Below, piece after piece: positions 3,184-5,777 of a stretch of DNA of 20,720 bases. Source of the stretch: a virus; IMG/VR virus record IMGVR_UViG_3300050821_001691, positions 1 to 20,720 of that record. One strand, 5' to 3'. How positions within the stretch are numbered: position 1 is the first letter of the stretch; each line of letters opens with the position of its first letter. Under the pieces are notes generated by a model. It searched no databases and was not told where the DNA came from. It was given only the letters and a program-made list of their open reading frames with translations. The position numbers and the translations under genes are program-made.

Positions 3184-4542
3184 GTGGCTTTTGGTGCGAG
3201 GATACAGGGCTCCGTCAATGTAAACGGTAGTGGGGGGCCTGTTTCTACAACTCTTTCTGCGATAACAAATGGCAACATAGTCATTTTATGCGCTGCTACT
3301 ACTGGTGCAGCACCAGTGGTTTCAGACAATCAAGGAAACTCCTATTCCGCTGGGGAGGTAATGAACTATGCTACTGGCGCGATCTTTGCCATTTATTACC
3401 TCCTAAATTGTACGAACGGCCCAACGACATTCTCTATGAGTTCTGCGGGGGCGGGGATTACCCAACTCTCCGCAGAGGAATTTACCGGAACCTCTACAGC
3501 CGTTTATGACACCGGCAATCAAGCAAATGACGCATCCTCGGGAGAATTTTTTACCCCAGGGAATATAACCCCATCGAGCTCTGGTGAATTATTAATCGCT
3601 TATGCGCAATCTAATAATTACCCTATATCCCTAGCTGTTGATAGCCCATTCACAATCGGGGAAGCAAGCGTTACTCTTCCTCATATCGCTTCCGCATATT
3701 ACCTCGATAGCGGTTCTTCTGCGATTACAAGCACGTTTGATGGCGGCTCTGCTAACAACGGGGGCATCTCTGGCATTATTGCTATATCCGCTGGTGGGTC
3801 TGCTGCTACCGCTTCCCTCGCGGTTACGATGCCAGACCTTACCTTGGTTGGCACCGCTACCGTTCCGATCGCGGCCACCCTCGCTAAGACGATGCCGGCT
3901 TTCACGTTATCTGGCACAGCCACGGTTCCTGTTGGTGCCACTCTCGCCGTCACGATGCCCAACTTCACGCTGGCTGGCACCGGGACAATTATCACTGCCG
4001 CGACCCTAGCTAAGACGATCGCTGATCTTACCCTGGCTGGCACGGCTACGGTATCTGGTGGAGTAGTCAGCGGCACACTCGCTGCCACTATGCCTGCCTT
4101 CACCCTGGTAGGAACAGCCGGGGTAATCTCAGCCGGCAGCCTCGCCGCCACTATCCCCAGCTTTACCCTGGTGGGTACGGCCCAGGTTCTCTCTGTCGTT
4201 ACCGCGGCTCTGGCTGCTACGTTCCCAGCCTTCATCCTGACCGCCACTGCCCTAGTAGGCAAGGCTCCGGTGCCACCCCCGCCTGATGGGGTTTCCAATT
4301 TCATCATGCAGGGTTTGCTGCTAGGGACGATAGTGACCGATGAACCGATCGCAGCGGGGGCTTACAAGGTCTCTGTGTCTGCTCGGTGGAACCAAGGGTC
4401 GAAGATCACCATTGGCACGATCAATGGCCCCGCGTATTCCTGGACCAACAATAGCCGGCGAGGGGTGGCTTTCCCGCTTGGGCAACTGGTGGTCACAGTG
4501 CAGAACGCGACATCGGTAAAAATCGTTATCTCTCCTAGTTGA
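3184..4542 (+). CDS. Probable head-fibre/tail-fibre-like adhesin with seven internal repeats
   Basis: 452 residues, GTG start three bases after the previous TAA; the N-terminus 'MAFGARIQGSVNVNGSGG' supports this start although no clear ribosome site is seen. Three regions are visible. Residues 1-210 are a beta-rich, low-charge domain ('VILCAATTGAAPVVSDNQGN', 'YYLDSGSSAI') resembling jelly-roll domains of phage surface proteins. Residues 211-362 are seven repeats of about 21-24 residues with consensus L-A-x-T-M-P-x-F-T-L-x-G-T-A-x-V. Residues 363-452 are a separate C-terminal beta domain after a proline-rich hinge ('APVPPPPDG'). This architecture fits an extended fibre or surface adhesin; receptor binding is inferred. 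The coding sequence of the first domain is A+T richer than its neighbours (50 G/C in 120 bases at 3541-3660 by hand count), suggesting domain acquisition. Its TGA lies inside the -35 box of the capsid promoter. Confidence 0.75.
   Translation: MAFGARIQGSVNVNGSGGPVSTTLSAITNGNIVILCAATTGAAPVVSDNQGNSYSAGEVMNYATGAIFAIYYLLNCTNGPTTFSMSSAGAGITQLSAEEFTGTSTAVYDTGNQANDASSGEFFTPGNITPSSSGELLIAYAQSNNYPISLAVDSPFTIGEASVTLPHIASAYYLDSGSSAITSTFDGGSANNGGISGIIAISAGGSAATASLAVTMPDLTLVGTATVPIAATLAKTMPAFTLSGTATVPVGATLAVTMPNFTLAGTGTIITAATLAKTIADLTLAGTATVSGGVVSGTLAATMPAFTLVGTAGVISAGSLAATIPSFTLVGTAQVLSVVTAALAATFPAFILTATALVGKAPVPPPPDGVSNFIMQGLLLGTIVTDEPIAAGAYKVSVSARWNQGSKITIGTINGPAYSWTNNSRRGVAFPLGQLVVTVQNATSVKIVISPS
3814..4269 (+). 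repeat. Seven degenerate in-frame repeats of 63-72 bases
   Basis: Units, by protein alignment: 3814-3876, 3877-3939, 3940-4002, 4003-4074, 4075-4137, 4138-4206, 4207-4269. Each encodes a variant of 'LAxTMPxFTLxGTAxV' followed by a variable 4-8 residue linker. Units 4 and 6 have longer linkers (24 and 23 residues in total). At the DNA level the copies have diverged in third positions, so the repeat is old or selected at the protein level. One beta-hairpin per unit, forming a rod, is a plausible inference. Confidence 0.85.
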
Positions 4543-4567
4543 CACCAAGCCTACCATAGCGTAATCT
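4539..4567 (+). promoter_or_regulatory. Sigma70-type promoter for the capsid gene
   Basis: TTGACA (4539-4544, perfect -35) is followed by a 17-base spacer and TAATCT (4562-4567), which keeps the most conserved -10 positions T1, A2 and T6. The -35 box contains the TGA stop of the upstream gene. Transcription would start near 4574-4576, at the first base of the long RNA helix described next. No other promoter is needed to explain capsid expression, but read-through from upstream is also likely. The site lies in the largest intergenic gap of the window. Confidence 0.65.
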
Positions 4568-4574
4568 ATCTATT

Positions 4575-4744
4575 CGGTCGGGCGTATAGGGCGTCGTGTA
4601 ATGCGCGCTTCCCGCCCTCGGGCTTCGCATGTATCCCCGCCTTTAGGCCCCCTACAGGGCACCGGTGGCGACCATGTGGGCCGCGCGCCCGACCGAATGG
4701 GGATACGTGTGAAGCGGCCCCCCGCACCCTACCCGCCCGACCGG
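4575..4744 (+). ncRNA. Structured RNA leader upstream of the major capsid gene
   Basis: A GC-rich segment (84 G/C in 120 bases at 4601-4720 by hand count) with extensive self-complementarity. P2: 4622-4638 pairs with 4699-4715 over 17 uninterrupted base pairs, including two G-U wobbles (4627:4710 and 4630:4707) that work only in the + strand RNA. P1: 4575-4584 (CGGTCGGGCG) pairs with 4734-4743 (CGCCCGACCG), continued after a 2x2 internal loop by TAGGG 4587-4591 with CCCTA 4727-4731. Smaller hairpins: AGGGCG 4588-4593 with CGCCCT 4613-4618 (alternative to the P1 extension) and GGCCC 4646-4650 with GGGCC 4678-4682. A second copy of the P1 3' arm sits at 4686-4695, extended to 13 pairs with 4572-4584. 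There is no T-run, so it is not an intrinsic terminator. The leader continues to the ribosome site AGGAG at 4801-4805, with a small further hairpin at 4765-4769/4776-4780. The structure is seen; function (control of capsid translation, message stability or packaging) is unknown. Confidence 0.7.
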
Positions 4745-4811
4745 CCCCCGCAAGGATACGGCTGTAGAGCAGTTACTCTATTGGCCTTAACCCTTGTGAC
4801 AGGAGCCCTCC

Positions 4812-5777
4812 GTGGCAACTCTCGCCCCTTTTGAAACCAGCATGGAGACGGTGCAGTTTAACACCACCTTCGAGATGCTGTTGCAGCAAGAAGTCTCCAA
4901 GCTTCGCGGCATGGTAGACAGCAAAGCTTATGTCGGTCGTATGGCCCAGGTGGTCAACCAGATTGGTGCCCTTGAGTTCAAGCAGCCCGCTGGCCGATAC
5001 TCTCCCCTCCAGTTCCAGATTGCTCAGTACACTCGTCCGTGGGTGCAGCCGACCGACCGTGACATCGCGGTTCCGTTCGACACCTTTGACGAATTGAAGT
5101 CCATCGCCGATCCGAAAGCTGCCATCAGCATGTCTGTGGTTGCAGCGGCGAACCGCTTCTACGACGATCTTATTATCAATGCCTTTGCCGGTACTACCCA
5201 GCGTGGCCAGGACGCACAGACCCTTACGGGCGAGACGTTCCCCACTACGGTCAGCACGACTACCAGCGCCTCGGCCCCGTTTGGCGGCTTCGTGGTGGCT
5301 GATACGTTTGGTGCGGGTGCCAGCGTTGGCATGACCTTTAACAAAATCCGTGAAGCCCAGCGCGTTCTTCGCCACTACGAGAACAACCTTGCAGCGGAGA
5401 AGCCTACCCTGGTGGTTGGTTCGCAGCAGATTTCTGATTTGCTCGGCCAGGTCGAAGTCATCGACAAGTCGTACAATGACAGTGCGGTTGTTGAGCAGGG
5501 CGAAGTCACCAGCATCCTCGGGACGATGATCGTATCGAGCGAGCGTCTGAACACCAGTTCCAGCAATACGCTGCGCAACTGCTTCATGTTCGTCCGCAGT
5601 GGTATGCACCTTGGCATCTGGAAAGATATGTCCACCCGGATCGACAACCGGCAGGATTTGTCTTCGCAGCCTTGGCAGTTGTATTCGATGATTTCCGCTG
5701 GCGCATGTCGCACCCAGCTTGGTAAGATCATCCAAATCAATTGCGCCGATACCACCGGCTCCGACATCACTCCGTAA
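4812..5777 (+). CDS. Major capsid protein
   Basis: 321 residues, GTG start with AGGAG at 4801-4805, six bases upstream. The sequence follows the pattern of a large family of phage capsid proteins distinct from classic HK97 gp5 in sequence (I believe Pfam Phage_capsid_2). Recognisable blocks are 'AQVVNQIGALEFKQ' (45-58), 'RDIAVPFDTFDELKSIADPK' (83-102) and 'AAANRFYDDLIINAFAG' (111-127), where the partner families have D-x-P and K/DD-x-I-I-A signatures. Next comes 'LVVGSQQISDLLGQVEVIDK' with 'GEVTSILGTMIVSSERL'. The C-terminal 'FVRSGMHLGIWKDMSTRID' and 'YSMISAGACRTQLGKIIQINC' close the fold. It forms the icosahedral shell. It has its own promoter and a long structured leader, in keeping with the highest-copy virion protein. 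No slippery site or extended second form is visible at its 3' end. Confidence 0.92.
   Translation: MATLAPFETSMETVQFNTTFEMLLQQEVSKLRGMVDSKAYVGRMAQVVNQIGALEFKQPAGRYSPLQFQIAQYTRPWVQPTDRDIAVPFDTFDELKSIADPKAAISMSVVAAANRFYDDLIINAFAGTTQRGQDAQTLTGETFPTTVSTTTSASAPFGGFVVADTFGAGASVGMTFNKIREAQRVLRHYENNLAAEKPTLVVGSQQISDLLGQVEVIDKSYNDSAVVEQGEVTSILGTMIVSSERLNTSSSNTLRNCFMFVRSGMHLGIWKDMSTRIDNRQDLSSQPWQLYSMISAGACRTQLGKIIQINCADTTGSDITP

Follow-up and report, generated by a model that had tools for sequence, protein, structure and literature searches.

Capsid protein is needed in large and timely excess, and to our knowledge dedicated RNA elements that control it are rarely known in double-stranded DNA phages. 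The lambda boxB element is a short hairpin that is repeated in the leader and falls into phage-specific compatibility groups; its recognized part is a GNRA-like pentaloop, read by the N protein. The operator of the MS2/R17 coat protein is a bulged hairpin near the start codon of a phage gene, and CsrA/RsmA sites expose an invariant GGA in a loop or single strand. The put RNAs of phage HK022 act on RNA polymerase with no dedicated protein factor. They comprise ~70 nt with two long stems, follow both early promoters and bind the β′ zinc-binding domain of RNA polymerase (PMC9378689), and in bacteriophage Mu the zinc-finger protein Com binds a short hairpin of the mom mRNA and activates translation (PMC6483171).

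The locus described here lies in a 20.7-kb fragment of a podovirus-like phage (the whole stretch of DNA analyzed, hereafter the window). Besides the major capsid protein (MCP), the window encodes a lysozyme, a protein with a transglycosylase domain and another that has a weak T7 gp14-like match. Among annotated phages, environmental podovirus records come nearest, followed by Pelagibacter phage HTVC010P and its kin (~25–31% MCP identity). The MCP gene and its expression signals are as follows.

4539–4567, + strand: sigma70-like promoter, TTGACA-17-TAATCT, read from sequence; retained in close relatives
4801–4805, + strand: Shine-Dalgarno-like AGGAG of the MCP gene, read from sequence
4812–5777, + strand: MCP gene (PF19821, PHROG 3437), GTG start

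From the position of the promoter, which a stricter promoter scan did not list, the 5′ end of the RNA is predicted near 4572–4575, in agreement with a preliminary description in which a structured RNA begins at the predicted transcription start.

The long fold of the window leader and its alternative

The preliminary description proposed a 170-nt fold made of a long helix and a second helix enclosing it, and both can be found in the sequence.

4622–4638/4699–4715, + strand: reported 17-bp helix, real here; a lineage-specific alternative pairing
4575–4584/4734–4743, + strand: reported outer helix, mutually exclusive with helix P1 (below); overlaps the conserved hairpin (below) by two bases

The 17-bp helix is uninterrupted and includes two G-U pairs, and none of 1,000 shuffles of the insert described below matched its complementarity. 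The outer helix continues into 4587–4591/4727–4731. As also read from the sequence, the element contains no T-run and ends ahead of the ribosome-binding site. The + strand folded more stably than its dinucleotide shuffles (z = −2.7, with 2 of 200 as good), and the − strand was less extreme (z = −1.3, with 22 of 200 as good). For the full leader of the window, the thermodynamic model prefers the reported fold, with a pair probability of ~1.

Comparison with close relatives revealed that this fold, real and beyond chance as its helices are in this strain, is not a conserved element. Specifically, relatives with 98–100% MCP identity keep both flanks and have 4621–4682, which holds the 5′ arm of the 17-bp helix, swapped for unrelated sequence; this stretch is a hypervariable insert exchanged among near-identical phages with fixed flanks. 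When five leaders were aligned, pairing held in only 73.6% of the cells of the reported fold and double changes were absent, i.e., neither reported helix shows the compensatory substitutions that homologous leaders were expected to carry. A competing helix (P1), missed by the preliminary description, is the basis of a different local fold.

4572–4584/4686–4698, + strand: P1 helix, 13 bp, perfectly complementary; encloses P2 and P3
4588–4593/4613–4618 (whole hairpin 4588–4618), + strand: P2 hairpin, outer stem AGGGCG/CGCCCU; part of the minimum-free-energy (MFE) fold of prefixes to 4700 and 4730
4621–4682, with base 4621–4627/4676–4682, + strand: P3, the replaceable insert with its own stem; base covaries among relatives

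In the same alignment, 95.4% of the cells of P1 and the base of P3 pair, three pairs are changed on both sides (equalled by 22 of 500 shuffles) and the covariation score was equalled by 3 of 500 shuffles. The P1 helix of L011 carries one compensatory change (U-A to C-G), which disrupts the reported outer helix, and P1 is kept in the other relatives. At the base of P3, two base pairs have both sides changed among relatives, and the length and sequence of the insert differ in L002, L003, L004 and L011. Covariation is uninformative for P2 because its sequence is invariant among relatives. The relatives thus support P1/P3, on evidence that is modest because only five sequences enter it.

In prefix folding, the MFE structure was P1/P2/P3 for prefixes to 4700 and 4730 and the reported fold from 4745 on, so a switch is possible in this strain. 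It nevertheless seems improbable to us that the 170-nt element with the 17-bp helix at its core would be the functional structure, possibly as such a switch with P1/P3. The helix exceeds chance, belongs to the full-leader MFE fold and has a counterpart in L004, where a 13-bp helix of its own uses the same 3′ region (matched by 1 of 1,000 shuffles), but it is lost in L002, L003 and L011, where no corresponding long helix was found above chance as judged by shuffles, it lacks compensatory changes, and inverted repeats of this kind can arise through template switching. A pseudoknot of the 13-bp with the 17-bp helix, the arms of which abut, was discarded since the 17-bp helix is not retained in relatives. 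The wider proposal of an undescribed structured RNA in the MCP leader holds up, more strongly than the preliminary description could show, through the alternative local fold and, most of all, through an adjacent hairpin (4741–4765).

A conserved bulged hairpin upstream of the MCP gene

The conserved hairpin overlaps the edge of the reported interval and is followed directly by a second, smaller one.

4741–4765, + strand: conserved bulged hairpin, stem 4742–4746/4760–4764
4765–4780, + strand: small hairpin UAGAG/CUCUA; stem invariant and loop variable in relatives; present in the full-leader MFE fold

Above its outer stem, the window hairpin has C4747 opposite A4756, inner pairs 4748–4749/4754–4755, a GCAA loop (4750–4753) and a bulge formed by U4757-A4758-C4759. 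In the consensus, the closing pair of the outer stem is C/U-G; next come C opposite A/G, CC/GG, a loop of variable sequence and mostly 4–18 nt, and a 3′ bulge of Y-A-(A/C). A covariance model (R1) built from 47 copies, the window copy among them, scored the window at 32.1 bits (E = 1.6e-6). Across 103 distinct copies, in an alignment fitted to the model and thus biased in its favor, 98.3% of pair cells were standard, and 42 double-change cells were counted versus 10.9 in shuffles (reached by 0 of 500). A set of 77 copies chosen without requiring outer pairing displayed CG, GC, UA and AU pairs in the outer stem and an excess of G-U over C-A of 37 to 3 (25 to 3 without the pair with the fixed 3′ G), which identifies the element as a + strand RNA. 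The same excess bears on a DNA-level role as replication origin, packaging site or DNA-hairpin promoter: a single tandem array per genome would agree with such a role, but the copies occupy the sense strand only and the predominance of G-U fits + strand RNA, not duplex DNA, so that we regard this explanation as barely credible.

Under the thermodynamic model, the conserved hairpin has almost zero probability in the full-length leader of the window, because flanking pairings win; we infer from the relatives that it would form in the window as well. The 4765–4780 hairpin could compete with the 3′ stem arm of the conserved one. A second, degenerate copy inside the insert (~4648–4665) was not detected by the covariance model.

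Next, we explored how the hairpin is distributed. A sequence-pattern scan of IMG/VR matched at least 119 stretches. In the loci examined, ~60 matches (loci fetched twice being counted twice) were located immediately before homologous MCP genes, in many cases as tandem copies. The remaining matches look like chance, with a back-of-envelope expectation on the order of 100 hits, and one locus fetched by a short DNA pattern (L013) proved to be an unrelated chance match. Since many pattern matches are likely fortuitous, the covariance model was tested on loci selected by MCP homology alone, and nearly all of these carried one to three sense-strand copies close upstream of the MCP start. Among 53 distinct leaders of this homology-selected set, 49 contained the hairpin and 45 contained two or more copies. 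A separate structural scan, largely blind to sequence, recovered the architecture in 45 of the 53 sense, 3 of the 53 antisense and 1.8 of 53 shuffled leaders. The copy number is one in the lineage of the window and usually two or three, up to four, in relatives. The last hairpin ends 30–101 nt before the start codon (median, 36 nt; 95 leaders).

In 40 phage records, complete or partial (sets of 16 and 25 with one shared), the significant matches concentrate in the MCP leader; a few weak matches lie elsewhere, the strongest being in G021 (E = 0.004), in sequence without an array. Copies also precede MCP-like genes in contigs of two bacterial metagenome-assembled genomes (L221 and L223). What the distant leaders L006–L008 have in common is a motif whose overlap with the reported interval is limited to the interval's last bases. 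Among more distant PF19821 phages, the hairpin is mostly missing (present in 13 of 71, compared with 6.3 on average and no more than 12 in shuffles). The annotated phages L135, L137 and L141 seem, by eye, to share the architecture with other stem letters, and their hairpins were not detected by model R1.

Other elements were noted upstream of the hairpins. Of 17 single-hairpin relatives, at least 9 have a promoter similar to that of the window (TTGAC[AG], then TAnnnT) ahead of the MCP gene. A conserved GTGCGTTG box is present in 53 of 72 multi-hairpin leaders (e.g., ~190 nt before the MCP start in L110) and precedes an inverted repeat (e.g., GGGCGCGG-CAGGTT-CCGCGCCC), the arms of which vary together; box and repeat are perhaps a promoter with its operator. 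In phage record L053, a suhB/mmgR small RNA (Rfam RF00519; 51.7 bits, above the gathering score) was matched at L053:2202–2282 (the same as L282:2202–2282), ~4.9 kb upstream of the MCP leader array.

The last bulge base, its possible readers and the proposed function of the array

The last base of the bulge is either A or C and is shared within a phage. Among the 72 leaders with at least two copies, it was A throughout in 47, C throughout in 17 and mixed in 8, two of which owe the mixture to an overlapping artifact hit. Mixed A and C bulges occur in L168, L172, L178, L180, L181 and L183, where nearly always only the first hairpin is odd. Within phages, the last bulge base agreed between copies in 155 of 170 pairs (shuffle mean, 100; maximum, 121), and other variable bases displayed no such agreement. 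The label needs 20 changes on the MCP tree; in independent pairs taken from that tree, the copies flipped together in 6 of 7, 5 of 5 and 5 of 6 cases and never oppositely, with P values of 0.03–0.06 that mark the limit of the test's power.

These flips bear on the identity of the reader. The MCPs of L045 (A) and L121 (C) are 98.7% identical, with four differing sites, three of them conservative. Because the MCP hardly changes while the letter flips in concert, a reader other than the MCP is suggested, and the MCP was rejected as reader of the bulge base given such near-identical proteins of opposite type with few, conservative residue differences. The simplest reading of the sequences would be selection by a trans-acting reader other than the MCP. 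Exchange of whole leaders as blocks could move all bulge letters together, but it would not explain the uniform types. When gene clusters were compared with the A/C type, mostly structural genes were common and none obviously separated the types, a comparison that is weak given crude open reading frame calling.

One gene adjoining the array encodes a candidate partner.

L063:1091–1411, L208:3451–3771 and about 40 other loci: gene for a Cys/His-rich (zinc-knuckle) protein, directly upstream of the MCP leader

The product is a small basic protein of ~105 aa (107 aa in L199) with a Lys/Arg-rich N-terminus and an invariant C-x3-C-x4-C-x7-C-x-H-P. Its gene lies directly upstream of the array in 64 of 72 multi-hairpin loci. 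It is absent from G001, the near-identical 47.9-kb relative of the window, and from the hairpin-bearing phages L008, L037 and L101, so the protein is at most a lineage-specific partner. As a universal partner it was rejected on account of these absences and of the same Cys/His core in L063 (A) and L199 (C). The protein had no Pfam match, insignificant PHROG matches only and no sequence match to solved structures, and AlphaFold modeled it with low confidence (mean pLDDT, 71; pTM, 0.49).

Taken as a whole, we favor, with moderate confidence, a cis-regulatory binding array that controls MCP expression, probably at the level of translation or mRNA stability. The conserved functional unit of the MCP mRNA leader would be the small bulged hairpin just upstream of the ribosome-binding region; a putative trans-acting factor would recognize the 3-nt bulge and its C-A/C-G neighbor, and its binding would determine how well the MCP message is translated or how stable it is. 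In the lineage of the window, a promoter-proximal P1 with P2 and P3 would precede the hairpin and could rearrange into the reported long helix. Three features, namely the fixed place by the ribosome-binding region, the conservation of the bulge and the concerted change of its last letter, favor binding of a factor that would act on translation or stability and not on transcription. Of the functions offered in the preliminary description, control of capsid expression stays the most likely, and the evidence from the bulge base speaks against the capsid protein as the specific reader.

The main rival is antitermination or anti-pausing, in which nascent hairpins bind RNA polymerase (cf. put) or a phage protein (cf. 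boxB/N) so that the structural operon is transcribed. The leader of the window lies behind a predicted promoter and at the head of a long operon, tandem hairpins stand near the transcript start, the letter shared within a phage resembles boxB/N compatibility, and confinement to a single leader would suit a late antitermination site as well. We nonetheless consider this rival unlikely, given that the element occupies one place per genome, always beside the MCP start and with a sharp 30-nt distance floor, and that upstream structural genes lack it; put sites instead follow both early promoters (PMC9378689). Less likely still is passive stabilization, whereby strong leader hairpins protect the MCP message against ribonucleases or hold the ribosome site accessible and nothing reads them specifically: the leader is indeed filled by GC-rich hairpins, and P1 of the window begins at the predicted 5′ end, but passive stems do not need the conserved Y-A-(A/C) bulge or its concerted last letter.

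Comparison with known RNA systems

At the gathering threshold, no Rfam 15 family matched the window or the element in eight tandem-copy relatives, and known ribozymes and riboswitches were set aside since Rfam scans at permissive E-values gave just weak, unrelated matches. A literature search of open-licence papers turned up no description of an RNA motif in the leader of this capsid gene. An intrinsic terminator has a GC hairpin and a T-run behind it; no terminator-like site was found in 4542–4812, and no T-run follows the hairpin.

Among described systems, HK022 putL and putR are likewise phage leader RNAs with tandem bulged stem-loops near a promoter, but the hairpins described here measure 25–50 nt, come in one to four copies and occur only in the MCP leader. 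As in the MS2/R17 operators, a bulged hairpin lies near the start codon of a phage gene; the bulge and loop are different, however, the phages have double-stranded DNA, and the MCP is seemingly not the reader of the bulge letter. The array resembles CsrA/RsmA sites in its tandem hairpins, many with GGA, and differs from them in that the GG pairs with CC, the position after it is A in 121 and G in 50 of 171 copies, and L135 has GACAGACAAG instead. A possible parallel with Mu Com/mom would be provided by the gene for a small basic Cys/His-rich protein, a candidate binder, that adjoins the array in most multi-hairpin relatives, although this gene is absent from the phage of the window and three others and the target gene differs.

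By their defining features, the element is not put, boxB, a CsrA site or a terminator, which suggests that it is an undescribed phage cis-regulatory hairpin array. A consistent hairpin family that is absent from Rfam and has a testable letter code offers a direct route to an RNA-binding regulator, and the covariance model can be used for annotating a large group of uncultured phages. The likeness to lambda boxB/N lies in a short hairpin repeated in the leader and, here, in an A/C letter shared within a phage; the loops, unlike those of boxB, are variable at 4–18 nt, and the bulge is the conserved part. Somewhat tentatively, we propose that these hairpins may constitute a new and widespread phage RNA family for the control of capsid dosage, in which tandem bulged hairpins carry an A/C code shared per genome and a phage or host reader is exchanged separately, comparable to the boxB/N groups.
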